Assembly: GCF_020740795.1 (NCBI RefSeq)
Contig: NC_067282.1
Location: 133,977,132 to 134,041,131, forward strand
Direction of reading: 5' to 3'
DNA from: Apus apus
Taxonomy: Eukaryota > Chordata > Aves > Apodiformes > Apodidae
Length of the DNA stretch: 64,000 nucleotides
Every line of letters begins with the position of its first letter. Positions within the stretch are counted from its first letter, which is position 1. Positions 16,501 to 53,394 of the stretch are shown here, in pieces. Made by a program: the position numbers and the translations under genes. Under the pieces are notes generated by a model. It ran no database searches, was not told the DNA's origin, and saw only the letters and a list, made by a program, of their open reading frames with translations.

Positions 16501-16857
16501 TTCCATCCAGTGCATCCTCCATCACTGCAAGAGACCTGACAAAAAAGCAGGTACCGCTTTTTAGGGGGGGTAGGAGATGGGACACGCACACCTGCAGCCG
16601 GAGCCCCCCCACCACAGCTTAGCTTACGTTCCCCCTCGCCGCGGAGATGCCCTGCAGGGGTGGGCGATGGTCCTTGTCGGTACCTGGATTACAGCGATGA
16701 TGTTAACGGGGTTTATATCTCGCCTTTGCCCGCTCTTGCTCTTCCACTCGGCATCCTTTCCACGGAGGCAGCCGGCGCTGGGTTCCTCCCTTGGCAAATG
16801 ATAAATTTACATTTCAAAACAAATCTAAAAGAGTTGGGTTGTTTTCCTGTGGGTTTT

Positions 16858-17010
16858 AAGGGGGGGTTGTGGGTTTGGGTGTTTATTTTTGTTTGTTTGT
16901 TTGTTTGGTGTTGGGTTTTGGTTTTGTTTTGTGTTTTTTTCTTGAGGGGGCTTTTGTTGTTGTTGGGTTGGTTTGTTTTGGTTTTTTGGGTTTTTTTGCT
17001 TAAAAGGAGA
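16858..17010. repeat. G/T-rich low-complexity tract with (TTTG)n
   Basis: Over about 150 bp the plus strand is almost only G and T, including a run of TTTG units near 16890. The translated frame here (F/V/W/L-rich) is an artefact of composition. Confidence 0.9.
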
Positions 17011-17689
17011 CTTTTAAAGTAAGTGCTTTCACCTCTGCCCCGAACAGCTCTTGAGAAAGTTTGGGGAAATAAGCATCAAGTTCCGGACCGTCGCTCTGCT
17101 TTTTGTATACCAACCAAACCACATTTCCCTGCAAAAAATAACAACACAAAACTCAACACAATTTGTTGAACAAAAGCCAACAGATTTCTACTGTCAGGGT
17201 GCGGGCGAGGGTCCGCTCCTAACCTGGCTTGCAGACATGTACACATGCCACTCTTCCACTCCGAGCTCGTCATCGAAGTGCTTTAACAGGGAACAGATAT
17301 TTTTCTTTCTTTTTCTTTTTCTTTTTAAGGGACCCATTTTGCAGCCAGCCATAAGTCAAAGCAAATTGTCGCCGAATACATGTAGGAAGGGTCATGCGCA
17401 GGCGGATTTATCCTGTTAACAGGGACACAGGAAGAGCCGGGAGAGCGAAGGTCTGCCCTGAAGACAACGTGGGATGTTACTTGGGGTAGTATTTTAAGGA
17501 CAGGCACTGGAAATCAGTACTTCGTGCATGCTCGAACGCGTCGCTATTTCGCGCTAAATAACATTTTAGAAGAAGCTCCCCCGGCTTTTCTGCTGGAAGG
17601 ATGCAGGATTATTTGGAAGCAGTAGTAAAATGGGGGCGGGGGGCTGAATGAATACAGAAGAGAGCTCCCTGTTGGGAACCTAATCAACA

Positions 17690-17880
17690 TTATAGATTAT
17701 AAACGTTCCACTATCAAAGGTTGCTTCGCCGCAATTAGTTTTAAATCATAAACATATAAATACAGGAACTAATTACGAGACCGCATCGGAGTTTATCTGG
17801 CAATGACTGGAAAGTAACCAACCATTCCCAAAAACTGTCATTGCCTTCCAGGGAAGCCTGTTGATGCTGAAGAATTTACA
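17690..17880. promoter_or_regulatory. Candidate conserved non-coding element
   Basis: AT-rich sequence with retained CpGs and dense homeodomain-type TAAT/ATTA cores. It also contains TATCAAAGG near 17712-17720, close to a TCF/LEF site in reverse orientation. Nothing codes here. Conservation cannot be tested from one sequence, so the call rests on composition and motif density only. Confidence 0.3.
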
Positions 17881-17939
17881 GTTGGCCGGGGAAGAAACCG
17901 CTGTTCCTGCGCTCAGAAGGCAACACAAGATGAATTCCT

Positions 17940-18120
17940 GAAAATCCCGATCACCTAATTGTTACTTTTATAGGTGGAATATTGGCTGAAACCGTAGACA
18001 TTAAAGATCTCTTAGTAACAGGCTATTACAGACGTAAGGAGCATTTTAAATACGACTCCAACAGTTTAACAAGAAAGTATTTTAGGTAACGAGGCTACGA
18101 TAGCTATTAATTTTCCTTAA
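17940..18120. promoter_or_regulatory. Candidate conserved non-coding element
   Basis: An AT-rich, non-repetitive stretch with scattered CpGs (such as CCCGATCACC and CAGACGTAAGG) and several TAAT-type cores, next to the previous candidate. The basis is composition only. Confidence 0.25.
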
Positions 18121-18257
18121 TTAGAAAGATTTTTTTTTTCCATTAATTATTTTCACAACAGTGACTTCGCAAAACAAGATTTCAGTATCTTTGCTTGTAG
18201 GTTGTTGAGGATTTTATTTCGGTTTTGATTTAATTCGGGCTTTTACTGTGTTTTGTT

Positions 18258-18272
18258 GGGGGGGGGGGGGGG
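18258..18272 (+). repeat. G homopolymer (15 nt)
   Basis: A run of fifteen G residues follows TTTTGTT in a T-rich context. Such runs are unstable and can form G-quadruplexes. Confidence 0.95.
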
Positions 18273-18798
18273 TTATCGCATATTTTGTGTCCATGTTTAT
18301 TACAATTATTAATTTTCAGAAGAAAAAAAAAAAACAACAACAACAAAGATAAGGAGGCGATAAGGACGGCCTGACTATACCTCTTTATTAAAGTGAAAGA
18401 CAAAACTTCTATTGACTTACGCGGGAACAGAATGAGGCCCTACAGGAATGTCTGCTGGGTGTCCCTTGTGCAGGAGCCAAGTTCATTTTCCATGTTGAGA
18501 GAAGAGACGGACACCGACCCGAACGCACCTAGTCCAGTTCTCCCAGGCGGTTCCTCGGTGGTGGGGCTGGAAGCCGCCTGTGCCTTCCCAGGGACGGGCT
18601 CTCACACCGGGAGGAGCGATGATGCCCCTTTCTCTGACCCTTTTCTCTGCCCAAGAGCCGAGACCCGCTCCGGCAGCTGCCGGCACCTCTCCCTGCCAGC
18701 ACCCCGCCTGGCGTGGCCGTGGGAGAGGACAGGGGACACGGGTGGCAGCTGCCCGCCGTCAGCGGCTGCCGTTGGAGCAGGACCTGCCGACAGCAGGA

Positions 18799-18836
18799 CC
18801 GACGGACAGACCGACAGACAGACCGACAGACAGACA
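18799..18836. repeat. (CAGA)/(GACC) tetranucleotide microsatellite
   Basis: Alternating GACG, GACA and GACC units run to CAGACATGG. Open frames through it read as TDRQ/DRPT or SVCR repeats and are artefacts. Confidence 0.9.
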
Positions 18837-18954
18837 TGGTAGCGGGCTCCCAGCCGGCGTGTTTGCCTGTTTCTCGGGAAGCGAATATTGGCCACGCAGC
18901 AAAAACAAGCCTGGCGCTTCACAAATGTTCCTTCCACGGCGCGAAGGGGCTTAA

Positions 18955-19145
18955 ACTGAATTATCAAGTACCCCGCAATATTCTGCTTTCATTCATGTTT
19001 CAAATAAATTATTGTATTAACGACCCATTAACTGTTTTAATGACCCATGTTATTTAATCACCAATGCTCCGTGGAAATTCTTATTTATTTCAATCTTCAT
19101 TGCAATTTCCAGTCACCCTCCACTTACCGTGGGTATAACGTGCAC
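18955..19145. promoter_or_regulatory. Candidate conserved non-coding element
   Basis: AT-rich and non-repetitive, with retained CpGs (CCCCGCAATA, TTAACGACCC, ACCGTGGGTATAACG) and several TTAA/TAAT cores. A minus-strand donor-like ACGGTAAGTG occurs at 19121-19130. The call is by composition only. Confidence 0.25.
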
Positions 19146-20619
19146 TAAGAGACGAAAGCAGGAAGGCTCTAAATTAGAAAAGCACAGAGTGAGTCCCACA
19201 TATTGACAGACGAACACGACACTTAGGCTCCTAGTTCCATTTTTAATACAAATAATAGTATTTTCCCACTCCCTAAGCACTCACTGTTCCTGAGATGTGC
19301 CTGGAAGGTGCTGGATACAGAAGCCAGAGAACAGGCCACCTTTCAAAAAGGCCTAACTATGGATTTAAATAGCTTAACTTGAAGCATCTACGTTAACAAA
19401 CAAGAAGCCCCTACGACTTCTTTTCGATCTCAGATTCACTGTACCACGCTCCAAAGATGACATAAACAGATGTGAGCACTGTAATAACAGCGGGAGAAAG
19501 TAAAGGAAAAAAAAAAAAGAAAAAAAGGCTATCATAAACGAAAAACGTTTATTTTAGGGGATGTTAGCACAGTGCCAGCCGCACTGCAGAGGACGACCTG
19601 CAAACTCCTTCATTCCCTCTGGGAACACAGCCTGTCCATCCCTACGGCCGTCCCAGTAAGGGTATCGGCGCTGCTAAACTCATCTGTAACTCGCCGTGGC
19701 ACCGGCTCGCGGAGGGGGTATTTACCGAGCAAGGGTCACCAACTAATAACCTTGTAGCAAGATTTCAGGGGGACGAGAACAGAGTAATGCCCCCGACACC
19801 CCCGATATATTTTTGTCCGGGTCCGGCCTGTGCAAGCGAGCAGAATTTTGCTCCTAGACGGGACACACACACACACCCCCCCTTTCTCAGTCCCCTAAAA
19901 CTGAACCGCGCTCTGCCTGAAACCCAGCCCTGTGCCTTAGCTTTCGGACTTCAGATACGGTGGGACAGATTCAGCCCACGGGGGAAGAGAGGAAACCACG
20001 GCACCAACAGGGTGCCAGGGACCGAAGTTGGGACCCTCTGGTCCTTCTGCCCCGGCCCGTGCCGGGGTGGGGTGGACACGGAAGGGGCAAGCAGGGCTGC
20101 AGGATCGGGCCCAAACGCTCCGCTCCCTCAGCGGTGAATTAGCAACAGAAATAGCCAACGGAATTGCCGCAGAACTAAAAACACTCTCGAGATCTCAGCA
20201 AAGCAAAGGAAAAACAAACAATAAAAAACCCAAACTAAAGCCGGAGGGGAGCGGTTAGCGGCACAGCACGACGTGTTCCTCGCCGCTGAACTGCTGCTCG
20301 GATGTTCCTCACGACGCTCCCACCGCGAAGGGAATGAACCTCTATTTCCCCCCCCCCCGCAACGTCTCTTGTCTTTTTCTGCACAAGGCAGCAACCCTGT
20401 CTCTCTGTGCTAGGCCTTGTACAACGTCCTAAAACAGCTCAGGGTTAAATACAGGGTATGTGCAAGATTGAGACATTCTGATTGACGTTTATTTTATATT
20501 TAAAAAAAACCCCACCACCCTGCATCTCTAACTACACCGGGGTCAAATTAGACCCGAGGTAACGCAAAGTCTGTAACAGAAGCAGCTATTCTCTAGCCAG
20601 GCATTGTCTTTATGTCTGG

Positions 20620-20850
20620 TTTACACAGTGCTTAGGAAAATGGATTAAGCAGAACGATCCCTCGGTGACTCTAAGCAGTGTGATAAACCACAGTGATAAA
20701 ATATGGCCGTGCCATTCTCTACATTACACCTCCGGATTATTTTGTAATGGTACATTCCCCCGTTATTACCTCTGCTCATGACTAACGACCGCGGGGTCGG
20801 CTGCCGGAATTAAAATGCACCGTCAAACCGGGGAAAGTTTTAAATCCCAG
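20620..20850. promoter_or_regulatory. Candidate conserved non-coding element upstream of CpG island
   Basis: Non-repetitive sequence with intact CpGs (CGATCCCTCGG, GACCGCGGGGTCGG) and a palindromic GACCGCGGGGTC-like core at about 20787-20798. It lies about 0.5 kb from the start of the strong island. The function is unknown. Confidence 0.25.
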
Positions 20851-21309
20851 GACTGACCTCCCTCCTCACGAACAATAATAAAAAAAATATGCAGCGTTCA
20901 GGAGGCGCGCATTTCTCCTCTAGCAATAAACTCTTATTAAAACTGTGACATGGAAGCCGCGCGTATATTTTTAAGTAACGGTTGTGGTGTTTTGAAAGAA
21001 TTTGTGTGACTTCAGCAACTTCGTCTTTAAAAATACCCTTCGGGGCCGCTGAGTATTAGGTGTTCAGTAGAGGCAGACAGGAGCGCTCTCGATGATAGCA
21101 TTTTGGTTTGTGGTTTGTTTGCTTGTTTTTAATTAGAAATAAAGCAAGACAAAACGAAAAGGAGCCCAGAAGCAGGAGCAGTCACTCCACACAACACACC
21201 CTCGCCATTTTTTTAGAACAGTGACCACGAAGGCCCCGGTTCTCGCGCATTAAACGGGGAGACGTGGAACGCAGCATTTACATCAAATAGGAATAAAAAA
21301 ACCCCACTA

Positions 21310-22740
21310 AGTGGGGGGCTGCGAGGGAGGCGAGCGAGGTGCTCAGGGGGCGAGGTGATGTCCCGGCGCTGCCCCCCGCGCTCCCGCCCCGGCTGCCGAG
21401 CTCTGCCCCGGGGGGCCGGTCCCGCAAAGGCGACGGGAGACGGGGAGAAGAGAAGCGGGGACCCCCGCTCCTTGGGGGACTCCCAGGCAGACAGGCAATC
21501 GCAGCCCCGCCGCACGGTCAGCGAGAGAGCTGCAGCTTCAGGGACCCGGGAAGCCAAAGAAATAGTAATAATAATAATAATTAATAATAAGGGAGGAGAA
21601 TGGCTGCCCCCTTCCAGTCTTGCTTCCCAGGCGGGGCCCTCCAAGAACACCCGCCTGTCACCCAGCCCGGCGATGGGGGGGGAGGAGGGAAAATAAAGAG
21701 GTCTGCGCGCTGCCGGCGGGTGCTCCCCGCCTCCTGCGGCGGGGCCAGCGGGGACAGGGCGGGCTCGGGCGGGCGGGGAAGGGGGGGCAGCGGGAGATCT
21801 GCCTGCGGGAGCTGCGCTCCCCGCCACGCACGGGCCTGGGGAGCCGGGGACAGCGAGGGAAGCCCAGCTCGGCCAAGGGCGGAGGGAGAAAATGGAGGCA
21901 GGCGAGGGGAAGGCGGGATCCGGGCCGGCCGCCAGCGGGGCCGGGCCGGGCCGAGGCGGCTGCGCCAGCGCTCCGCAGCCGCACGGCGGCAGGCGGGGCG
22001 GGCCCCTCGCAGCGGGGACCCGGGCCAGCAGGGCGGCGCGGAGCGCGGCAGCGGTTCTTTTCCGCCTCCGAAGGCGGGCCGGGGGCTGGGCTAGCGCCGG
22101 AGCCACCCGAGCTTCGAGCGCGGGGCGGGGAGCCGGGCAGCCTCCTCGCCCTCTTCCCGTACGCCGAGCCGGGACGCTGCAGCCACCCGCGGCCACGTAG
22201 TGTCCCCCCCCCGGCCTTCCCGAGCCTGTCTCTGCCCCGCCTGCACAGCCCCTCCCGGCCGCTGGAAGCCGCGGTGTCCCTGGCGGCAGCGCCGGGAAGG
22301 GCTTGGCGGTGATGCCGTGACGGACGGACACGGCTGGGGGCCGTCCCGTCCCGTCCCGCCGCCCTGAGCAGCCAGGGGACGGGGTCAGGCAGCCGGGCCA
22401 GGCCACAGGGCCACCCGGTCAGCGGTGGAACGCCAGCGCCCGCCGCGGCCCGGCCTCTAGCGCAGGGCAGCCGAGCGCCGGGGGTCGCAGGTAAAACGGC
22501 GGCTTCTTCCAGAACCTTCTCGGCGCCCTGCCTGCCTGCCTGCCAGGCGCCATGGCCTGCGGCGGGCGCGGGGCGCCCTCTGCCGCCGCCCGGGGAGCAC
22601 CGCACCCCCCGCCCGGGGAGCACCGCAGCCTCCCCGCCCCCCGCCGGGGAGAGACCCCCTGTCCCGGGAGCCCTGCCTCCGGCGTGGGCCGGGATCGCCC
22701 CTGGGGGCACCGGGGAAAGCCGGGAGAAACGGGCGCAGTT
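21310..22740. promoter_or_regulatory. Strong CpG island, candidate promoter of an unidentified transcript
   Basis: About 1.4 kb of very GC-rich, CpG-dense sequence with many GGGCGG/CCGCCC Sp1-type boxes. Very long open frames exist on both strands (for example 21213-22406 minus), but they are low-complexity Pro/Ala/Arg/Gly strings. That one begins at GTG, so it is not a vertebrate gene start. A plus-strand donor-like CAG|GTAAAA lies at 22490/22491. A minus-strand CAG|GTGAGT donor-like site lies just outside at 22948-22956. In mammals the let-7a-3/let-7b host gene starts upstream of WNT7B in the opposite direction. This island sits about 22 kb upstream of exon 1A and could be its promoter, but that is inference. 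Confidence 0.6.
21562..21592. repeat. (AAT)n microsatellite inside the CpG island
   Basis: A short tract of TAA/AAT units lies within otherwise GC-rich sequence. It reads as poly-Asn or poly-Ile in the frames that cross it. Confidence 0.85.
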
Positions 22741-22988
22741 AGAAACGGAGCGTTTGTTCGTGCAGTGGTTCAAAAAAAAAACCCCATCATCATTCAAAGC
22801 GGATTGGGCATCCTATAATATATATCCCACCCGCCCCCCCGGACGTATCATTTTTGTCAGGATTTTGTCAAACGTGTTTTGTTCGCAGCCGGAGCGTTTT
22901 AAGGCAGAAGTGCTGAGTTGCCAAGTAACAGGAAAAGTTCGAGTTAAACTCACCTGACTGGCAGAACACAGGTGTTTTTCGTTGTTTT

Positions 22989-39555: not shown

Positions 39556-41325
39556 GAAGGACATCCCCAGTCTTAAAAAAAGCTCTAGAGGCAGAGAGCA
39601 GGTTTGGTAGCATCTCATCTTAGACCTAGGAAGCAGCTGAATAAATGAGAGAATTAATAAAACACTTAATGTGCAAAGGCCTGGTAACACACATAGAAAA
39701 TATTAAAGGCTAGTAGTAAATGCATATACTTAGTGTTAGTGTTACATTTCTTAAGAACACCTGTGTAAGATCCTGGTCAGCTCTCAGATTACCTCTCTTG
39801 GTATGCTTTCTGTTTTCATTTTTCTTCTTACAGTTATTTTCCTCTTTTTCAACCACATATACTCTTGTGTATTTTCCCTGAGGAACATTTTCCTGCTTTT
39901 ACTTTCTTAGCATTAGATGGGGGCCTTCATCTACCATTGCATGGAGCAACAGTGCCAGGCAGTGGCTGGCCAGCATAAATGCAGCTGGATTTTCCCTCGA
40001 GTTTGACTTTGGGATCCTGTGACTACTAGTTACCTATGACTGATCTGAGCAGTACAGACAGAAGAGAAAGGCATGTAAAGAAACCTGACAGAGGAATTAT
40101 TCCTGTTGTCTGTGTGCCCCAGAAATTTCCCACGCTTGTTCTGCTTTTGAACACAATGTTGGAAATAAGCTCTAGGGAAGATGATGTGAGCTGCAACCAA
40201 CAGTTTAAAATTCCTTTCCCCTTCCATGCTGCTTACACTTCCATTTACAGAGCTTTACAGTGGTCTTTCACCTCCTCATACTGTGAGGATTCTCCTCCTG
40301 CTGGGACAGTCCTCTGTCTGTCAGGTCCTACAGGCAACAGCAGCCCAGGTGAGACTAAGAGCATGAGTGCTGTGCAGTCTGGAATAAAATGAGACCCATG
40401 ACTTGGCTAGTGACTCTTCATTCCTGTCATCTTCTTCTTTCTAGAGACTGACACCCACGTTATTCCTGAGTAACTGCACACCCAGTAGTTACCTCCTGTT
40501 GACTAAGCTGTCAGATAAATTCACAGCCTCACTGGTGATTTCTGAAGGTCATGTGGATTCTCCTTCCTAGGCACAGGAAAAGCCTCTCCACTTGGAGTGG
40601 GGGTAAATGGATGATGAAAGCTGAAGTCCAACAAGCCTTTGAAATATTTTATCACAGGAGACATTTTATCTAGAGGGAGGCTAGAGGGAGGTATGGGGAT
40701 CAGGCAGCAATGTTGTATAGCTGACCTTTCTTTCTATGGCTTTAGAGGAGTGCATCTTAAGCTTTGTCAGCAGAAGGTCAGTGTGTGGAAATATGTATCA
40801 GTGGATTTTCTATCTACTGTATGACCTTCCATGCCAGTTATATTGAATGAGAAGCAAATAATGATGGCGCACTAGAAGAGCACTTCATGGTTTCAACCTT
40901 CATCTGCCAATACTTCTGTATTTATGAATGTTGCCTTATCTTGAGGAAGCCTTTTAGCATTATTAAGGTCGTATTTGTTTAAAGTTGTTCAATGAGCTTT
41001 ACATATTTTGCCTACAACTTTAAAGCAGCTGTCAATTTCTGAGCGCTCATATGAGAATTACCTATTTTAATGTTTTGCAGGGTTTTTCCTCTTAAATTGC
41101 AGAGTTAATCAGCTTAATTAAATCTTCTTATCCTCAGCCTAAGCTCTGAGCAATAGTTAAGCTGCTATTTGAAGGAAGGAAAATGTTATCATTTTTTCCC
41201 GAGTCCAGGTTCTTCAAATCAATTATCTGAACAGTGGAGCGTCAAAATACAAGAAGATTTTTCCCTGAGCACGAAGCTAGTTCACGCACAGCCTAGTTTA
41301 GTTTCTCTTGCTGAAACTCGCTGGG
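39556..41325. other. Intergenic DNA, no gene seen
   Basis: Nothing coding recognised. A small direct duplication of CTAGAGGGAGG lies near 40670-40692. From here to the window end I see no CR1 copy. Confidence 0.5.
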
Positions 41326-41329
41326 TGTG

Positions 41330-42110
41330 CGCGCAAACACGAACAACTGACCCGTTCCCTGAAGCCGAGGAGCCCGCGCTCGCCTGGCGGCCCCGGCAGC
41401 CGCGGAGGAGGCGGGAGGCAGCCTGAGCTGCCGTCCTGCTCGTGCCGTGGGCTTTCTGGGAAGGAAAAAGGAAAGGAACACGTGCGAGCGAGCCTCAGAG
41501 CAGGAGCAGCAGCAAGCGTCGTGCCGCCCAGTGCCTCCCTCCCGGTCTCCCCGGCCGGCGAGCGCCCCGTTCCCGCGCGGCAGCCGCCCCCGCCGGGCCT
41601 CCTGCCGCCCACGCCGCAGACCCACGCCCGCCTCCCGCGCGGCTGCGGGGGCGGCCGCGGGACGGGAGGCAACACCCAGACTCCGCGCTCCGCAAGCCGG
41701 CGAACCTGCTCGGCCCTGGCTGGAGGGCCGGGGCCGGGAAGCTGCGGCACATCATCCCCCCGACAGCCCGGCGGGAACGAGGAGCCCATCCCCGCGCCCT
41801 CTGCGCAGGGAGGACGGAGTCCCTGCAGCCGCCCGGCCCCACCTGGCTCGGCCCGGCCCGGCCCGGGTGCCCCCGTGGGCGCAGCCGCCTGCCGCCCCTG
41901 GGTGGCGGTGTTATCCCGCGGGACGCCCGGGGCCGCCGCCCGGCCCCGCTCGCAGTGTCGGGGCGCCGAGCCGGTGTGTGCGGGGCCTGGGGCAGAAGCC
42001 GCAGCGTCCCGCCCGCCTCCCGCCCGGCCGCGGGCAGCTCGGGGCTCAGCCCCTCCGTTCGGGACTCGGAGGGGACGTTTCCCTTTCCAAGGGCTTTAAA
42101 AAGCGGGGGT
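41330..42110. promoter_or_regulatory. CpG island 2.2 kb upstream of WNT7B exon 1A
   Basis: Sharply bounded GC-rich, CpG-dense sequence with GC boxes (GGGGCGGCCGC, CCCCGCC). Long frames over it (41308-42099, 41442-42215 plus; 41495-42382 minus) are low-complexity Arg/Pro/Ala/Gly strings with no domain. I judge it an upstream promoter or regulatory island of WNT7B. It could equally start an unannotated non-coding transcript. Confidence 0.6.
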
Positions 42111-43600
42111 GGGGCGGGGGAATATACAAAAAATAACGGGGTGAGGAGAGGGGAGGCTGCCTTTAGGCTTCCCTTTAGGTGTGGGTCTGAGTGTTTGGGT
42201 GGCGGCTCTGGGTGAAGTTTACGAGGCTTTGGGAGGAACGGTTTGGAAAAGGGAAAATTGGCCTCGTCCTTTAAAAAAATAGTGGTGTTGAAAAATAATA
42301 ATAATAAAAAAACCACACAACAAAACAACCAACCCCCCCTAAAAGAAAAGAAAAAAAATAATTCCGAAAGCCCCCAAACCAAACAAAACCTATAGCATCA
42401 GAGGAAATAATAAAGGACATTTAAATACAAAGGAAAGAGCGTGAAGGGAAGAAACAGGGTTTTAAAAGGAAACGTCGTTCACAGTTAAGGAAAACGCAGC
42501 AGCAGCAGTCCGGAGGAGGGAAGGCTGCCTGCAGGAGCCGGAGCGTTGATTATTAAAGAATAAAACGTGAGGAATGCGAGGGAAGAGGCAGAGCGAAACC
42601 GATCAGCAGGGAAAGATAGCGGAGGGCTCGGTGGGGTCCTCAGGTTGGGCTGTCTCCTTCCCTCCCTCCCGGGAGACTCGGCGTGAACCGTCCCGCAGGA
42701 GGGCCACTCTCTGTCCCGCTTCTGCTTCCCTTTCTCAGGGGCTTGGCTTGGGATCTCCGCACCAAGCTCCGAGAATACCTTCTTTTCGGGAGCTGGGTGG
42801 GTGATGCAAGGTGCGGGAAGCCTTGACTGTGGGGGGAATCTAGAAATGACCTGCGATTTCACACTGCATCTCTTCAACCACTGCAGCCTGGCTGGGCTTT
42901 CAAAAATCCTTTGTTTTCTCCGTCAGGATAGATATTTTACGATGAAGTGCTGTGTTCAGCCTCTTTGGCTTGCTTGTCACTGCCTGCTTTCCTTTCAGCC
43001 GTTACTGGTGTGTGTTTAGCTGACTCTCTTTCAGAGAAGCCTAGAGCTATCTATGTTTACTGTACTACACGTATATAAGTGTATGTGTATGAGTGGGCTT
43101 AGGTGCACGGGTTTATCCCTATCTATATAACTTACCACAGCCCACAAACTTGTATTTGAGTGCTATTTAAGCGTGCATATGCATGCCGACATATGCCTCC
43201 AGACAAGCACACATTGTGTAGTAGTAGACTGGAACAGAGAATTCCACAGAACGCAGGAATAAACTGAAAAGCTCAGAAATCAGTGAGGAAGAAAGAAAAG
43301 ACAGAAAGAAAAGGAAGCTTTGCTTGATTGTTAGTGTCTGAACACAAAGTGAGTTTTTGTTTCACTGATTAATCTCCCTAGGAGCAGCAAATCTAAACTG
43401 GTGTTAAAAGCCAAGTCTATATGTTTCTTAAAGTAAGATGCTTTCTTACTGTGGAAAATGAAATCAAATTTAGTAACAGGCGTTTGTGTACAGCAGGGTC
43501 TGATAACCGAGGAGAAATAGTCTGGACACATACACACGTATATTGCCTTTTAGGACACGGAGCTGTAAGCAAACGAGGGTTAAATCCTGCCTCTTTTTTA
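42111..43600. other. WNT7B 5' flank, no exon seen
   Basis: Mixed-composition sequence with an AAT/A-rich tract at about 42290-42360. A forkhead-type TGTTTAC lies at 43054-43060. No coding exon recognised. Confidence 0.45.
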
Positions 43601-44063: not shown

Positions 44064-44144
44064 ATGAGGCAGTTGATCAAGATCAGTGCTTGCTCATTTT
44101 CTCCCTCAGACTGTCTGTCTTGGGTTTTTGTTTTACCGTTTTGA
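44064..44144 (+). other. Upstream ORF 1 in putative exon 1A leader (26 aa)
   Basis: An ATG opens a 26-codon frame ending in TGA, wholly upstream of the WNT7B start. It is in the mRNA only if transcription begins before 44064 and the acceptor-like site at 44177 is not used. The peptide has no recognisable feature. Confidence 0.4.
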
Positions 44145-44195
44145 GCAGCTCTTTCTATTTTTTTCCTCCCTCTTTAGCTTTAGTATCGGAGCACT

Positions 44196-44297
44196 ATGGC
44201 TCTGGGAAGAGCTGCTTATCTGCTCGGTGTCGATTTTTTACAGTTTGGCCGGCTTTGCTCCTGGGTAGCTTCAGCAATGCTCTTGACTGGGATTTAA
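44196..44297 (+). other. Upstream ORF 2 in putative exon 1A leader (33 aa), strong start context
   Basis: The ATG has A at -3 and G at +4, a strong Kozak context. The frame runs 33 codons to TAA at 44295-44297, 59 bases before the WNT7B ATG. If present in the mRNA it should capture scanning ribosomes and lower WNT7B translation. Confidence 0.5.
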
Positions 44298-44332
44298 TCG
44301 ACAAGATCAGTTCGACTTTTTGTGCAATTTTT

Positions 44333-44353
44333 ATGGCTCAGTCCATTCTCTAG
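44333..44353 (+). other. Upstream ORF 3 (6 aa), stop three bases before the main ATG
   Basis: ATG opens the hexapeptide MAQSIL, and its TAG is followed by one codon (ATC) and then the WNT7B ATG. It lies in the main reading frame, so the TAG also fixes 44357 as the first usable ATG of that frame. The -3 base is T, so initiation is probably weak. Confidence 0.55.
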
Positions 44354-44356
44354 ATC

Positions 44357-44427
44357 ATGCACAGAAACTTTCGGAAGTGGATTTTCTACGTGTTTCTATG
44401 CTTTGGAGTCATCTATGTCAAATTAGG
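44357..44427 (+). CDS. WNT7B: WNT7B first coding exon, form 1A (partial gene)
   Basis: This is the signal-peptide exon of a secreted, lipid-modified Wnt ligand that acts through Frizzled/LRP receptors. The sequence shows ATG then MHRNFRKWIFYVFLCFG, followed by VIYVKL and two bases of a Gly codon. As I remember the mammalian WNT7B N-terminus, it differs by about one residue (Ile for Leu near position 19). Residues 2-7 form a basic n-region (His2, Arg3, Arg6, Lys7) and 8-20 a hydrophobic core; the cleavage site would lie past the junction. An in-frame TAG sits six bases upstream, and A at -3 supports the start. The exon ends at GG|GTAAGT (donor 44428), phase 2. Exon 2, beginning ALSSVV in the family, is not in the window. 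WNT7A is the closest paralogue, but its N-terminus fits less well. Confidence 0.93.
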
Positions 44428-44999
44428 GTAAGTCCTTGTGCACGACAAATCTCCTTGGCTTTTGGGTCACGTTATTACGGAGTTGTGAACAAAATGTTGC
44501 AAAGGAGAAAAAAAAAACAAAAGGAAAAAAAAAAAAAAGGTAGCAAAGGAGAGAGGAGGTGGTTGTTTCTGTCTCCCCGCCCTGCTCCCTGGGTTGTCCA
44601 AGCGGTGGCAGCCCCCAGAAGGTCCCCGAGTTTCTCCCCGGTCCCGGGACAGGGCGGTGGGGCGATACCCAGCCACAGGGTACTCCGGGCAGCGCCGAGC
44701 CTGCAGGAGCCGGTCGCTGGTGATGACGGGTCCTTTTTATTTTGTACTGCTTAAGAGAACTTAAATATTATCTCTGGCATACGGTACCCTCAGAAAAAAA
44801 AACAACCAAAAACAAAACCAAACAACCAAACACAAACGCGCAGCCCGACAGAGTTAACTCAGCTGCTGCTGCTGGGACAATAGATCAGAGCTTAAGTATT
44901 AAAAAGGGGAAAAGGGCGGGAGGAGTGGAATCCCTGCTCTGAACCTGCACTCAGGGATTTGTTTTATGCAGGCCTAGACACAATTTGCGTTTCTATCCA

Positions 45000-46330
45000 T
45001 CACACGGACGTGTTGAAATTAACTTGACAACTGGTCCGTCTACCTCCGCGCTGAAGCGTCCGGGAAGCCAAGCGGGAACCGGCTCGGGGCCCGCAGGCCG
45101 CCTGGCAACGGGGGCTCCCGGGAAGCTGGCTCCTCGGGATTTGATCACCTCGATCGAGATCACTCTGTTATTTTAGTTGCCAGGTTTCTCCTTCTGCCTC
45201 TCCCCCCTGTACCTGTATGCCCTTATTAATATTGCTCGTCGCAGTAGGCTGACTTGAGTTGAATTTCCACATTCCTGAGCCCCAGCCGAGTCCTTACCTG
45301 TCGAGTAACAAACTCTTTAAAGATCCTGTCTTTGCATAGCTGCGGGATTTTTTTTTTTTTTTAAATGATCAAGAATGCATAAGGTGAGTTGCAATCCAAA
45401 AGCGCTCGCTTCTCACCTTGAAATCAATACGGAGAAGAGGAGGGGAGCCAAAGGGCAGCCCCAAAAGGTGGGAGAGCGGGGACAACTCCCCGGACGGAGG
45501 GCAGCACCCCGTCCCGTCCCGTCTTGGAGCGGGAGAGCAACGGGGAGCTGCCCGGCCCTGCCCCCCCGGCCGCCGGGACGTGCTGAGGCCGCGCAGCCCG
45601 CCCGCCCCGCCGGCGCTGCTCCGGGCACCGTGCGCGGCGGGGACAGCCCCGTCCCCGCTGGTAGCAGCCCGGGCAGCGGCGGGGAGGAGGGAGCTGGCGG
45701 GGGGAAGGGAGGCAATCTGCAAGAGGGAGCACGCCAGAGATGAGGATTAAGGTTTTCACTGGGGGCGGGGAGGGATTAAATCGGTCTCCTCGGGGATGAG
45801 AAGGGAAGCAGAGCTGCCCAAGCACGGCCGGTGCCCCTCAGTGGGAGTTCCCCCTGCCCGCTCCCTCCCCGGCTGCAGGCAGGAAGGGCAGGGCTGCCGG
45901 TGAAAAGCACGGGCTGCCTGCCAGAGGGTCCCCAGCAGGTTGCTCGGCGGGCACCAGCCGGATTGCATCCCTGTGTGTGCTTGCTTCTTTCCTTATTTAT
46001 TTATTTATTTATTTATTTATTCATTTGGCACTGCTCTCAGCCCGCCCCCACTGCCACAGGTGCTGCCGCGGGGGCCGGCGCATCACGGCGTTGTCCCGCT
46101 GGCGACCCGCGAAGGATGCGCGGAAGCGGAGGGGCGCGGGTGTCGCTTTCCGCCCTGCCCCCCTGAGAAGCCAACATTCACCCGTGTCCCGTCCGGAGCA
46201 CATGCCCCTGGGCTATCCTCAAATCCGGCCTGTGGAAGACCGGAGGGCGTTTTCTGTGCTCTGACCTCGGTGGGGCTGAATACCTGCGCCGCTCTTTGTC
46301 GTAGCGGTGGTCGGCAGCGAGGGGCTCTGT
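45000..46330. promoter_or_regulatory. CpG island downstream of exon 1A
   Basis: CpG-dense in two lobes (about 45030-45140 and 45470-46310) with an AT-rich gap. GC boxes are frequent. The open frames across it are low-complexity and unsupported. Its position 0.6-2 kb into intron 1 suggests it belongs to the WNT7B promoter domain. Confidence 0.6.
45993..46026. repeat. (TTTA)n microsatellite
   Basis: About eight TTAT/TTTA units, the last with a C substitution, lie inside a CpG island. The frames that cross it read FIYLFIYLF and are artefacts. Confidence 0.95.
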
Positions 46331-47689
46331 CGTCCTCCAGGCTCAGAGTGGCAGGGACTTGGATGAGAAGTGAATTTGGTGAGGATGTGTGTCCACACAT
46401 GAAGCTATGACGGGGGCACCCCCATGTGCTTCAATAGCAGGAGGACTTCATACAACGCATCCCTCATAGAGAGGCGAGCTCGAAGCAAATACTTTGCAAA
46501 GTAGGGGCAATGGTATTGCTATTCACTTTCACTGCGGTTTTATTTTTAAAGGGAACAGAAGACTGGGCACATGTTACAGTCTGGAAGGCAAATCTCTTTT
46601 CGAAATTGATTGTGGCTGTTTTAGAAGGGGATTCAGAGCAAAAATCACAAGAATGCAGTTGGACTGAGCCTGGAAGTAAAATTGAGTGAACAGCAGGAAC
46701 AGTAAAAGCTCTTACAGAAACCCCATCAGATCCATCACCATGCCTGTAAGATGATGAGGATACTACACTTTCTCTTAACAATAGGAGAGAAATTTGCTCT
46801 GAGGTCCAGTGCTACTTCTAGGCTAGGCATGTGGGATGTAATTATTTCCTCTTTCATCAGCCACTGGAACTACCATTTTGTTGAAACCATATCCTTTGAG
46901 TGTAATGATACCTTTTCGAGTGAGCTCTTTGCACAGAAAAGGGGATGGGGAGATGAAGTGAGATAAAACGTAGTTTGTCTTCCAGTGTATTAGGTTTATT
47001 TTGCAGCGTGAAGTAGAGAGCCATTGTGCCAGCGATAGCAAAGAGGTTAGATTTGGCACGCCTTTTCTCTCTCTTTTTTTTTTTTTTTTCTTCCCTTTGC
47101 TGGGGAGCGAACACGTGTTTATATCTTAATAAAACGTGCTAAAAGTTCCACTTTTGGTGGCAAACATGAGACCGAGGGGATAGAGAAAAACGCAAGAACT
47201 TCATAAGTATTTACCCAGATGTTGTACGGGGGCGTGGGGTATGTCCCACGGGGTGACATGGCAGGGTACAAAGAAGCTGGTATGTCCAGTTAGGAGGAGA
47301 GAGCAACATCCCGCTTAGGCAGTCGCCCCTCTGAGGGAATCCCCGTTGTTACCGTATCTATTTCCTATCCCCGAGTTTGCCGGAGAGAGATGCGTCAGTT
47401 GAAGCATCCCTTGATATTTCTGTCCATGACGTTTCCGTTCAGGCAGCGAAGCGTAAAGTGTCTGGAACCCTTGCTGACTCCACGGATCTCCTCGTGGAAA
47501 TGGATCACACCAAATATTGACCCCAGCTAGCAGCAGGATAGAAACAAAAATTTCCTGTGAAGATCGCAGAGCGCTCGGCTCCACTTTAATTAATAAATAC
47601 GTCGGAAGTTGAAAATCACAGCTGTACCACAGATGCAAATCACAGCGGATGCTCTGGGGACGAGCAGTGTAACTTTTGAAAAGACGGAG
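46331..47689. other. Intronic DNA, no exon seen
   Basis: Mixed composition. A T-run lies at about 47074-47089. No coding exon recognised. Confidence 0.5.
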
Positions 47690-48480
47690 CCGCGGGCAGT
47701 GCCCGGATCAGGGATCCCGGGGCAAACCCCACCCTTTTCCTCTTTATCTTTCCTAGAGGGAAAGAAGGGGGACAGCCGGGGCAGCGCCAAGGGGAGCGGG
47801 GAAGACACGCTTCCTCCTGCGGGGAGCAGGTCAAGGGATGTTCGAGGGATGCAGGCGGTGGGTGGGAGTTGGCGTTGCCCAAGTGGGCAATGCAAGGCAC
47901 CTGCACCCCTTCCGAGGGCGGCGGGGCCGCTTCCTCCGTGCCCCTGCGGCAAATTCGAGCGGAGCTGAGGGCTCATAGAGCTGCGGACGCCGGGCAGTCC
48001 TGCGCGTCCTGGGGCGGCTGGAGCACGCCGCTCCCTATAGGGACTCCCGGGAACTCTGTGGCGAGGAACGGGCCAAACTGACCCCGCTTCGCGCCCCTAC
48101 AGCGAAGCTCGTCCTGGCTTTGCGGAGTCTGCAGTAAACGCCAACGAAATCCCCCTTCCCTCGCCCACCCCAGGGCTGTATGGCGGCAGAGAGCCCGGGC
48201 GGCCGGCCCCTCCAGGCTCGGCACCACCGGCCCCGCTGCAGGCAGCGGCTGAGGCGCAGCCTCGACGACGGGCACCACGTGGCAGCGCCGGGAGACCCGG
48301 CGAGACCCCGAGTCCCAAGAGGAGACGGGTGCAATTTATGCTCAGAGCCCTGGACTGTGCGGCTGAGGCACCGGGGCTGCCTGGTACCGTCCCCCCGGAG
48401 GGACTACACGGTCCCCGGCCCCTCCACGGGCACCCTCCGTTTTTCCGCCGCCACTCCTCACCCTCCTTGCCAACCGGACA
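47690..48480. promoter_or_regulatory. CpG island in WNT7B intron 1
   Basis: GC-rich and CpG-dense with sharp edges. Overlapping open frames on both strands (for example 47590-47976 minus and 48180-48551 plus) are compositional. No TATA or splice pattern allows an exon call. Confidence 0.55.
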
Positions 48481-50000
48481 TCCGCTTATTCCAAGCGACT
48501 CATCATTCCTCTCTGCTTATTTCCCCTGGCACTAAACTTGCAGTTCTGTGAGCTACAAGATACACCGTATTCTGACCAGAAAGGAGTCTAGTGTGTTACC
48601 TACCGGGCATGCCTTCAAAGCTCTTACCGGCTTCCGACGTGCTATTGTGGCGGACACTTCCTGGGTTTGGGATAAGAAAGAAACCACAGCTGGGAATAAA
48701 CAGATACAAGAGAAAAAAAAAATAAATTTAAAAGTAAATAATTTATTCATGCCCGCTCTGCTTCATCTGCCCGATCTGTGGTGTCGGCAACCATTTCAGT
48801 GCCGTACTGCCACTGTTTTGTCCAAAAGACACGTGTTTGTGGAAGAAGGAACTACAGATGCTGAAATGCCTATATTAGGTGTTACCGACAATACCCTTTC
48901 CTCCTGTGCCACGTAATGTTATTGAAGGGAATATGTTTGGCTTCAATCAACAAAACAAGTGCACTTCTCACTACACCCGGCTGCCATGCTTATAGAAACC
49001 ATTTGGATGACATTTAGATTATTCTTATCAGCATCATCATAATCATGAATTTTGCGACAGAAAAACCGAGCCATGGTTTTAGAGTAAAATTTAACTTCCA
49101 GAAAAGAAACGGCACAATTTGATTTCTTTTATACAACTTTCCACCTCCCTTCACCCCTCCCCGAGGTAAGCTCGGGGATAAGACCGGCTTCGATCTGAAA
49201 ATTCTGAAGATTTGGAAACGTCTCCGTTTCAGCTGTACTGGGTCGAACTCTGCCAGCACCACTTCGAAGTTTTCCTGAGCCAGCCTTTCCTTTTTATTTT
49301 TACAATTCACTTTTCCTTGTTCTTCTTCTTTCCCCCAAGCACATCTTTAAAAGCAGAGGCACATTAAAAATATATATATATATCTGAAGGCGAACAAACA
49401 CTAGAAATAGAACATTAAAAGTCTCTCCTGGCTCTCCCAGTTCACCTCCAGCGCAGCTGCCCCAGCCCCAGCCTGAAGGTCTGACAGGGAGAATGGGCAT
49501 TACAGGAGATACACATCTGTGTGTCTATATGTATATACATACGGACACACTTACAGAAGTATAAATACGACGATTTCAGAATCTGAAAGAAATATAAACA
49601 AGATTATTTTGGGATGTAAATAATCGTTGAAATGATTAAGCTTCTGTCTCTTGGTGATCGATATTAGTGTTTCACAAAAGGACGTCCCAGCGTCTGAACT
49701 GAACTTGTGGATGAAAGTGGCTAAGTTAAACCAAACCACGAGAAGGTTTTTTTATCGTATATTGGCCGGCAGACAACGTTATCAAACCAATAGTGCAATC
49801 CCGATTCCACCTGAAGGAATATTTCGTTGTGTCACGGGGAAAGCTGGACCCATGTCCTGGGTCTGGTTAACTGGAGGAGGTGCTCCCAGGGTGCCTGGAA
49901 GAGCTTTTTGCCAAGAAAACTCCTTCAGTCATTAGATAATTAACCTGAAACGAACACTGGCAAACGCTACGGACCCAGGAGACTTCGGAGCCCGGTTCTG
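48481..50000. other. Intronic AT-richer DNA, no exon seen
   Basis: No exon recognised. A short (AT)n tract is at about 49371-49383. Scattered CpGs persist (for example TACCGGGCATGCC), consistent with low methylation in the promoter domain. Confidence 0.45.
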
Positions 50001-50009
50001 GCTCATTTC

Positions 50010-50490
50010 GGCTACATTTGTGTTCAGTTATCTGCGGCGCACGTTTCTCTTTCGGAGTTCGTTTTCAAACCCGAACCCCGGCATCTGCAGCGCACGTCTG
50101 TCCACCAAGCCTTCCACCACTAAAAGTTCTTTTTTTCTTTCTTCCCTCCTCCCCGCCCCGCAAAAAAAGGACAAATGTCCAGCGAGGCAAAGAGGAAGAG
50201 CGACTGTCTCCTGCATGGTTGCAGCTACACGGGGCGGGGAAGGGTCGAGCATCCAACGGCGCGGCGGTGCCGAAGGGGGTAAGAAGCCGTTCGGCTGGGA
50301 GAAGGGCAAAGGAGAGGCAACTAACCTGCAGGGAAACGTCTCTTCTGACTGGCATCTTCTCAGGAAGGAGAAAGGGAAGAGAGGAAACGCCAGCTCTTCC
50401 TGCGGGAGCGGCGAGGGGTGCGGGGACCCGGCAGGCGCTGGCAGACGCTGCGACCCCGGCGAGGCGCTGAGCGCCCCGCTCGCCCCCTGA
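50010..50490. promoter_or_regulatory. CpG-rich patch about 1 kb upstream of exon 1B
   Basis: GC-rich with many CpGs. It is shorter and less dense than the other islands. It probably belongs to the exon 1B promoter region. The open frames over it have no domain. Confidence 0.5.
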
Positions 50491-50606
50491 CACCGGTTGT
50501 TTCACACCAGTCCTCTCCCTCCCCTTCTCACGCCAAATTCAATCTAGCCAGGAAGCTACGAGTGTGCGTGTCTTTATTTCTCATTCAGGCGGGCTAGGAC
50601 AACATA

Positions 50607-50609
<3 letters not shown>

Positions 50610-50639
<30 letters not shown>
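50610..50639 (+). repeat. T homopolymer (30 nt)
   Basis: Thirty T residues between ACATATAC and AAAGATCC. There is no retroposon body attached, so it is a simple repeat rather than a tail. Confidence 0.95.
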
Positions 50640-50646
<7 letters not shown>

Positions 50647-51018
50647 CCCCTGAAACCGGATCATATTTTTCCACACCGAGGACAAGGAGAGCCAAACCCC
50701 TGCCGAGGATGGAAGGACAGAGGAGTCCTTCGGGGGAACTGGGGCAGCCGCCCATAATAAAGCAATTAACCGAGAGCGGAGCTGGGAGCTGCCAGCTCCT
50801 GCAGGATCTCTCCCAGGGCGAGCTGAAAGGGTGCCACGGCAGATGCAGGGAGCCAGCCTCTCGCAGCCCGCAGAAGGAGAGCCTTAAAAAAGCCCCATGA
50901 AGCGGGTGAGGAGAGTTTGCGGAGTGAGGCGTGCGGAGAGGGCTCAGCCAGAGAGCATGGGTTCATTGCAGCCTGGGCTAGACTAGATCAGTGTCTCTCC
51001 ATTGTCATCCTCCCCTCT

Positions 51019-51063
51019 AAAAAAAAAAAAAAAAAAAAAAAAGGGGGAGAGAGAGAAAAAAAG
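51019..51063 (+). repeat. 45-nt homopurine tract upstream of exon 1B
   Basis: Twenty-four A residues are followed by GGGGG and a GA/A-rich stretch without any pyrimidine. It lies about 450 bp before the exon 1B ATG and parallels the longer homopurine tract before exon 1A. A CCAAT box (51089-51093) follows just downstream. Confidence 0.95.
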
Positions 51064-51088
51064 TAGGCGGATTGCAGTGACTGACTGC

Positions 51089-51093
51089 CCAAT
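51089..51093 (+). promoter_or_regulatory. WNT7B: CCAAT box of the putative exon 1B promoter
   Basis: CCAAT occurs in CTGCCCAATGGCAG, a good NF-Y context, about 425 bp before the exon 1B ATG and just before the (GA)n tract. If it works at the usual 60-100 bp spacing, transcription would start near 51150-51190. No TATA box was seen. Confidence 0.35.
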
Positions 51094-51120
51094 GGCAGCC
51101 CCGAGTCTCAGGAGAGTTAC

Positions 51121-51125
51121 AGAGA

Positions 51126-51156
<31 letters not shown>

Positions 51157-51157
51157 G
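51121..51157. repeat. WNT7B: (GA)n tract upstream of exon 1B
   Basis: About 37 bp of almost pure AG repeats (one GGG interruption) end 360 bp before the exon 1B ATG. This is nearly the same position as the GA tract relative to exon 1A. Confidence 0.95.
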
Positions 51158-51237
51158 CATTTTCTGCCATCCAAATCCCTTAAACCATCCTCATTCCAAC
51201 ACGAGAACCCACTGTAACAACTTCCAACCACTGAGAC

Positions 51238-51318
51238 ATGACAGGCAGGAGCCCAGAGGCAGCAGCAGCAGCGAGAGCAGCAGCAGCAGCACATACTCTG
51301 CACAGGGAGCAGCATTAG
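51238..51318 (+). other. Upstream ORF in exon 1B leader encoding a poly-alanine peptide (26 aa)
   Basis: ATG with G at -3 opens a 26-codon frame ending in TAG, about 200 bases before the WNT7B ATG. A CAG-type repeat is read in the GCA frame, giving five alanines, an Arg, then five alanines. No other ATG lies between it and the WNT7B start, so reinitiation downstream is possible. It needs a transcription start before 51238. Confidence 0.5.
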
Positions 51319-51345
51319 CACCAGGGGAATACTAGACACAACAAT

Positions 51346-51372
51346 ACAAACAAACAAACAAACAAACAGACA
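51346..51372. repeat. (CAAA)n tetranucleotide repeat in exon 1B leader
   Basis: About six ACAA/CAAA units end in CAGACAAAG, inside the presumed 5' untranslated region of exon 1B. Confidence 0.9.
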
Positions 51373-51516
51373 AAGCCCCCCCAAGCCCAAGGGACTGGAT
51401 TCCAACTCAGATTCAAGCCACAGCTGACACCAAAAAGGGTGGGGAATTACGACCAGGGGGGGCCAGAAAGGAATAACCAAGGAAGCGAACTCCAAGAGTG
51501 TAAACGGGATTCAGCC

Positions 51517-51599
51517 ATGATCCTTTTTTCATCTCGCAGTGTGTTACTCTCAGTGTATTACCCTCAGATTTTCCTCATCCTTACCAGTGGGAGTTACCT
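51517..51599 (+). CDS. WNT7B: WNT7B alternative first coding exon, form 1B (partial gene)
   Basis: This is a second N-terminus for WNT7B. The sequence shows ATG (G at -3) then MILFSSRSVLLSVYYPQ, then IFLILTSGSY and two bases of a Leu codon before CT|GTAAGT (donor 51600). The exon ends in phase 2 like exon 1A, so splicing to the shared exon 2 gives ...GSYL then ALSSVV. I recall a mouse Wnt7b isoform with a very similar start (…PQIFL…GSYLALSSVV); that record should be checked. The peptide has one basic residue (Arg7) and two hydrophobic segments (9-15 and 18-23), so it is a less typical signal peptide than 1A. It lies 7.16 kb downstream of the 1A ATG with its own CpG-rich flank, CCAAT box and leader. 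Exon 2 is outside the window. Confidence 0.85.
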
Positions 51600-51618
51600 G
51601 TAAGTGATCCAGATTCTT

Positions 51619-51655
51619 TTTTTTTTTTTTTAAATTTAATTATTTTTTTTTTTCA
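51619..51655. repeat. T-rich low-complexity tract after exon 1B donor
   Basis: Two T runs separated by AAATTTAATTA begin about 20 bases after the donor. It is low complexity, with no retroposon body. Confidence 0.9.
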
Positions 51656-51761
51656 AAATCCTGTCTGAAATGACCCCGCTAGCAGCTACCTAGGGGCAAT
51701 ACGCAAAGCAAGCAGAGGGAGCCGGGAGAAGCCAGCACGGGCAGCAGCTCCGTGCAGTGCC

Positions 51762-51835
51762 TGGTGGTGAGGATGGTGGTGGCGGTGGTGGTGGCGGTGG
51801 TGGTGGCGGCGGAGGTGTGCTGGTGGCGGCGCTGG
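51762..51835 (+). repeat. GGT/GGC-rich trinucleotide tract, G-quadruplex-prone
   Basis: Repeated GGTGGTGGC-type units begin about 160 bases after the exon 1B donor and lead into the CpG island. Frames across it read poly-Val on the plus strand and poly-His or poly-Pro on the minus strand; these are artefacts. Confidence 0.9.
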
Positions 51836-52900
51836 CGCTGCTGGTCGGACCCCGCCGAGGGAAGGTGCACACCGCCAGGTAACTCCCGGGGCTGCCCCGC
51901 CGGCGGGGCCGGGGCCCGGCGTGCCCGCAGCGGGGGCGGCGCACCTTGGAGGGCGGCGGGGCACGGGGCACGGAGCGGCCGGCGTCTCCCCTGGGGACTC
52001 CGACCCCGACTCCTCCTCCTGCCAAACCGGAGACGGGCACCGCTTCGCGCTCGGCGGGGGAAGTGTGTTTCTGCGCGGAGATCCCGAGGAGCGGGGAGCT
52101 GCTGCAGCCGGCGGGGAGCGCCCAGCACCGCAGCCCCGGGGAAGAGCCCCGGCCGCGGAGGCGCTTGGCTAGCCGGCTGCTTTTGCTCCGGAGGGATCTC
52201 CAGTCCCGCAGTTAAAGCTGGCTCCAGGACCTTTTCCTTGTGAGGAAGGGGGTGGAGGTAGGGGTGGGGGAAATGAGAGTCGGTGGGTGGGACTGCAAGG
52301 AGTTTCTGTCTCTTTTTTTTTTTTAATATCTATATCTGTATCTAACGTTGCGGTGGATAAGTAGCGGCTGGGCTAGTCTGTGCGGGTTGCGGAGAAGGTT
52401 TCCGCCGTCGTGTTCCTGCAGGTCCCCCGGCAGGTCTCTGTCCCCCTGGGCTCCGCATTGGGGGGCCGACGGTGGCGGGCCGGGGTCCCGGCGCCGGCCA
52501 ACCGGGGTGCCGAGGGGAGCCGAGGCCGGGCGGGGCTGCACGGCGGAGCTTGGAGGGGCTGGCAGGGAGTTGTCAAGGGCTTCTCCTCTCCCACACTCCA
52601 GGCCAGACCTGACCACGCTTTGGGGCAGCTGTGGTGAGGGAAGGGCGCTGGGGGCAGCAAGTTCCCCGGCCAGTGGAACCGCTCTAAAATCGGGACCCTT
52701 CTCTCCCCCTTGAGCATCCCTCCGGCCCGGGGCGCGGCGTGTCCCTCCATGCCGGGACTCGGGGATCGGGCCCAGGAGAGCTCCGGGAAGAGCAGCGGGA
52801 GCTTCAGGCTCACCTCGGCTCGGGTGAACTCTAGTCGGTGATGGGGAAAACCCGCCTCAGTATCCCCGGCCTCGCATTCCCTTCGGCCGCGGCGTCCGGG
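51830..52900. promoter_or_regulatory. WNT7B: CpG island just downstream of exon 1B
   Basis: About 1 kb of CpG-dense sequence with many GC boxes. It starts 0.2 kb after the exon 1B donor, with one AT-rich gap at about 52310-52350. The long open frames on both strands are compositional. It is best read as the downstream part of the exon 1B promoter island. Confidence 0.65.
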
Positions 52901-53394
52901 CAGATTTCCCTTCTCTCCCATCCCTGTGCCGAGCTCAGACTTTTCTGCATCCTGGCGGGTGCAAAATTTGAGCTCCTACCCCTAAACTATATGTGGACTT
53001 CTATAACTAGAGCTATTTTTTCTGTCTGTGCATGTACGGGAGCACATGCACATGAACAAGCACGTGTGCGTGTGTTTCCTCTGGGTGTGTGTTGTGTATT
53101 TTCTGTGGGCTATGGAAAAAAATACGACCCACCGCTATGGAAGAAAAGTAGGAATAAACACACCCATAAAAAGAAACTGAACGCCTATTTCTGCGTTCTT
53201 AATTCTTAATGAAATGCATATGCCTTGGCTACCAATTTTTAAAGGCGCTTGATTTATGAAAGCACTTCAGGTTTAATTCGGTTGGATGCTCTTGATTAAA
53301 CCAGATAGCCAGAGCTGCGTGTTTCTATTCACAGGCGGGATATGTCTGCTGGTAGGTGACCACTAGTTTGTAACAAAAAAAAATTGCAGTGCCA

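Follow-up and report, generated by a model that had tools for sequence, protein, structure and literature searches.

Alternative first exons or promoters have been described for several Wnt genes. In WNT5A, two transcription starts with exon 1 and exon 1-beta alter the signal-peptide end of the protein (WNT5A-L and WNT5A-S), and the discussion of the same study names WNT16 and WNT2B as Wnt genes with alternative promoters (PMC3832467). For WNT7B, a turkey study of 2017 attributes alternative first exon isoforms to chicken Wnt7b, and, hence, the arrangement as such is already known (PMC5420122). Here, we describe the 5' part of WNT7B of Apus apus in a window of 64,000 nucleotides (nt) of contig NC_067282.1 (forward strand, positions 133,977,132 to 134,041,131). 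All coordinates follow the numbering of this window, and exons 2 to 4, which lie beyond it, are given in the same frame. The gene probably uses two mutually exclusive first coding exons, 1A and 1B, each with its own promoter and both spliced in phase 2 to one exon 2. As in WNT5A, the alternative exon is situated within intron 1 (PMC3832467).

The two candidate exons lie on the plus strand, with their start codons separated by 7,160 nt. The coding part of exon 1A (44357–44427, 71 nt) opens with ATG, encodes MHRNFRKWIFYVFLCFGVIYVKL, and ends with the two bases GG of codon 24 directly before a GTAAGT donor at 44428–44433 (GG/GTAAGT, with the slash marking the cut here and below). This donor ranks 17th by site score among the 7482 GT dinucleotides in 144 kilobases (kb), and an in-frame TAG stands two codons upstream of the start codon. 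Exon 1B (51517–51599, 83 nt of coding sequence) also opens with ATG, encodes MILFSSRSVLLSVYYPQIFLILTSGSY, and breaks off after the two bases CT of codon 28 at its own GTAAGT donor (51600–51605; CT/GTAAGT). Its start codon bears a G at position -3. The 1B frame stays open for 66 codons upstream of this ATG, up to a TAG at 51316, with no in-frame ATG between that stop and the start codon; the sole ATG in the preceding 400 nt, at 51238, stands ahead of that stop. Both positions, the shared phase, and the GTAAGT donors are as the initial annotation had placed them.

Exons 2 to 4 are not in the window, where a tblastn search with them gave no match; they follow on the same strand of the same contig at 100783–101009 (exon 2, common to both forms), 131028–131299 (exon 3), and 141756–142235 (exon 4). 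This makes the first intron 56.4 kb long from 1A and 49.2 kb from 1B. Exon 2 begins with A, so that the junction codon would read Gly after 1A (GG+A) and Leu after 1B (CT+A). Joined to exons 2 to 4, 1A yields a predicted precursor of 349 residues and 1B one of 353, neither with an internal stop; hence, the common exon 2 expected by the initial annotation indeed takes up both first exons in frame. Mouse and human WNT7B occur in forms of 349 and 353 residues. The acceptor of exon 2 holds the top score among 10601 AG dinucleotides in the 144 kb, and those of exons 3 and 4 rank 24 and 2044. At the level of DNA, both exons, both donors, one common acceptor, a matching phase, and two open predicted precursors are thus present.

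Judged by sequence comparison, the gene is WNT7B rather than WNT7A, in agreement with the original assignment. Exons 2, 3, and 4 are 96%, 91%, and 93% identical to the human WNT7B sequence used as query; a second best-matching locus, on C10 and taken as WNT7A, is 76–81% identical to it. For the 1B-form precursor, Pfam wnt (PF00110) is the sole domain match (8.2e-127, residues 45–353). In the PDB, both precursor forms match WNT7A best. A 1A-type query, composed of 1A from the Apus apus genome and the human remainder, aligns to it over residues 1–349, and the 1B form aligns from residue 29 only, which is the first residue of exon 2. A search of the window with Rfam gave no match at gathering score.

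The two exons differ in their relatives. Within the same genome, WNT7A exon 1 (C10, about 1141387–1141457) is a homologue of exon 1A: the two agree in 12 of 24 residues and in 43 of 71 nt, with an expectation value (E) of 2e-8. This counterpart is of the 1A type and shares phase 2 and the GTAAGT donor. The 1A type is therefore older than the split between WNT7A and WNT7B. Unlike WNT7B, WNT7A shows no detected 1B-type exon in the 40 kb that precede its exon 2 (28-residue query, best E 0.2 over 42 kb at this locus). No 1B relative was found elsewhere in the 144 kb at WNT7B (best E 0.67), and a genome-wide search with a 27-residue 1B query returned only the exon itself, with a single candidate scored—since just this one got past the first look, a diverged copy could be missed. 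A descent of 1A and 1B from each other by duplication was considered and rejected, as neither query retrieves the other exon at E up to 10; they are unrelated, as had been proposed. The first intron of WNT7A spans about 0.8 kb (C10, 1141387–1142263) versus 56 kb in WNT7B.

On the promoter side, each first exon would have its own transcription start and both donors would be used, and this picture of two promoters is drawn from the exon structure and not from CpG content. The initial annotation had assigned a CpG-rich flank to each exon. Islands do lie nearby, but downstream of the start codons, at 544 nt from that of 1A and 114 nt from that of 1B. Three neighbouring islands follow 1A on its 3' side (44901–46440, made up of 44901–45290, 45351–45830, and 45891–46440) and two adjoining ones follow 1B (51631–53010, made up of 51631–52600 and 52631–53010). 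Both leaders are CpG-poor, with observed/expected CpG ratios in the 500 nt upstream of 0.41 (1A) and 0.23 (1B). The islands were rejected as proof of two promoters for lack of specificity: the window holds 14 of at least 300 bp, covering 15% of it, and within 40–56 kb an island is as near as to the 1B start for 49% of positions and as near as to the 1A start for 79%. Further islands occur upstream of WNT7B at 16521–22870 and 41211–42790, the longest measuring 1.7 kb (21161–22870), with no gene assigned to them. In mouse embryonic kidney, Wnt7b is listed among genes with antisense transcripts, which are mostly head-to-head (PMC3180702).

The leader of exon 1A, directly 5' of the start codon (plus strand, 44178–44356), stands behind an acceptor-like site, TTTTTTTCCTCCCTCTTTAG (44158–44178, ending at 44177), 179 nt before the ATG and ranked 16th of the 10601 AG. 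Because of this site, a further untranslated exon may precede 1A, perhaps inside the CpG island at 41211–42790. Four upstream ATGs lie in the 300 nt that precede the start codon of 1A (44064–44353); three of the reading frames end before 44300, and the fourth, MAQSIL followed by a stop, extends to 44353, which leaves three bases to the 1A ATG. The 1B leader holds one upstream open reading frame (ORF) in 400 nt (51238–51318). If transcribed, the two leaders would therefore differ in translation, with four upstream ORFs versus one.

Among published systems, chicken WNT7B is the same gene, again in a bird and again with alternative first exons; unlike the present case, it is represented by one sentence with no sequence (PMC5420122). 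Most likely, its isoforms correspond to the two exons described here. In the literature searched, which leaves most subscription papers outside, we met no further mention of WNT7B first exons, and the exon peptide strings had no match in it; PMC12842694, PMC3675378, PMC3180702, PMC8601470, PMC4162578, and PMC13162999 gave no information bearing on these exons. The parallel to WNT5A is also partial: the short form of WNT5A begins at an internal ATG, whereas the WNT7B exons each bring an ATG and a putative signal sequence of their own; mature WNT5A proteins are 18 residues apart by sequencing, whereas those of WNT7B are predicted to be alike (PMC3832467).

This last point bears on what the exon choice might do to the secreted protein. 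The initial annotation held that promoter choice alters its N-terminus; two ligands with different N-termini and activity—like WNT5A-L and WNT5A-S—would be the consequence. The 18-residue difference found by N-terminal sequencing in WNT5A is a precedent for this (PMC3832467). Exon 1 supplies 24 residues to the 1A form and 28 to the 1B form. Cleavage was predicted with a weight matrix (column sums 161 each), for which the usual cut-off is 3.5. The three best sites fall after residues 33, 31, and 38 in the 1A form and after 31, 32, and 37 in the 1B form, all of them in exon 2, so that no exon-1 residue would be left on the ligand; the fourth-best site lies inside exon 1, at residue 17 (1A) and 20 (1B). 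The best site does differ, being after residue 31 in the 1B form (ALS/SVV, score 4.53) and after 33 (VALG/AN, 2.22) or 31 (VVA/LG, 1.70) in the 1A form, and with the predicted sites in use the ligands would differ by 4 to 6 residues at most. The signal peptide of Wnt7a is given as 31 residues in the literature (PMC11633749) and, therefore, also ends past the 24 residues of exon 1. Furthermore, the N-terminus of secreted WNT5A-S, IIGAQ (PMC3832467), aligns with ALGAN of WNT7 exon 2. We hence consider functionally different ligands unlikely, and the model points to a mature ligand that is likely the same, or nearly so, from both precursors.

A second explanation would deny that 1B is an exon at all and take it for a chance ORF in front of a donor-like site. 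Both strands of 186 kb hold 82 phase-2 ORFs of 14–40 residues running from ATG to GTRAG. Ten of these pass a filter on hydrophobicity and absence of acidic residues, three of the ten with a stop at the junction codon, and the exact GTAAGT occurs in only three of the ten: WNT7B 1A, WNT7B 1B, and WNT7A exon 1. Under an order-4 Markov null, comparable exons arise at 0.117 per 100 kb on average; 7 of 60 runs contain one or more and none of the 60 contains two or more, compared to two observed upstream of exon 2—with the threshold of this test chosen after seeing 1B and set just under its own score. That such ORFs are expected at all, that 1B was rejected by the first filter, and that no relative of it was found elsewhere in the genome or upstream of WNT7A agree with a chance origin. 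On the other side, 1B combines the exact GTAAGT, a fitting phase, a stop-free junction, and the G at -3, and alternative first exon isoforms are stated in print for chicken (PMC5420122). For 1A, homology to WNT7A exon 1 lifts the candidate above chance. For 1B, anatomy alone offers modest evidence of an exon, and the published chicken statement weighs more. A chance ORF is, overall, quite improbable.

About as improbable, if not slightly more so, is that the 1B region serves, at least sometimes, as an internal cassette, with 1A spliced to an acceptor at 51539/51540 and 20 residues added before exon 2. The possible cassette (plus strand, 51540–51599) would follow a strong acceptor-like site within 1B, ATCCTTTTTTCATCTCGCAG/TG, ending at 51539 and ranked 29th of the 10601 AG; its 60 nt are in phase 2 at both ends, and 1A joined to them and to exons 2 to 4 stays open over 369 residues. 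The acceptor score is not decisive, however, given that the real exon 4 ranks 2044th, and the pyrimidine-rich region of the start codon resembles an acceptor by composition. Such a protein would also require two consecutive hydrophobic segments, and the term used in print is "alternative first exon" (PMC5420122). That 1B is a WNT7B-specific addition acting both as first exon and as cassette, giving three precursors (349, 353, and 369 residues) with different handling in the endoplasmic reticulum or different mature N-termini, is the least credible of these proposals and very doubtful.

Two alternative first exons with a shared mature ligand thus remain the preferred reading, and several points weigh against it. 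Anatomy alone makes 1B about a 1-in-9 event (the 7 of 60 null runs); the earlier and stricter hydrophobicity filter passed 1A and failed 1B; and the donor of 1B ranks only 184th among the 7482 GT. Neither leader bears a TATA-like box, and neither is CpG-rich. The best matrix score is 0.19 for the WNT7A control and 2.22 for 1A, and because both stay under the cut-off, the argument from cleavage carries little weight. The mature isoforms of WNT5A differ by those 18 N-terminal residues, which WNT5A-L keeps and WNT5A-S lacks, and a predictor missed one of the sites (PMC3832467). Regarding chicken, the sentence on the isoforms comes with neither source nor coordinates, and in the table of the paper itself, WNT7B shows neither a change nor a signal (PMC5420122).

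Taken together, the finding is real, correctly placed and identified, and ordinary. The full gene model is now fixed, with an exon 2 that is located beyond the window, at a distance of 56 kb, and fits both first exons, and the view that the secreted ligand must change with the promoter used is corrected: all three best predicted sites of each precursor lie in exon 2, with a predictor that performs weakly on this family. The choice between 1A and 1B would mainly set the place and time of WNT7B production, in addition to exchanging the leader and the signal peptide. Signal peptidase would then remove the part encoded by exon 1, giving a mature ligand that is identical between the two forms or differs in a few residues of exon 2. 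In birds, the loss of a single first exon, 1A or 1B, would probably still allow WNT7B to be made from the remaining one, and, hence, an edit meant to abolish the gene should target exons 2 to 4.

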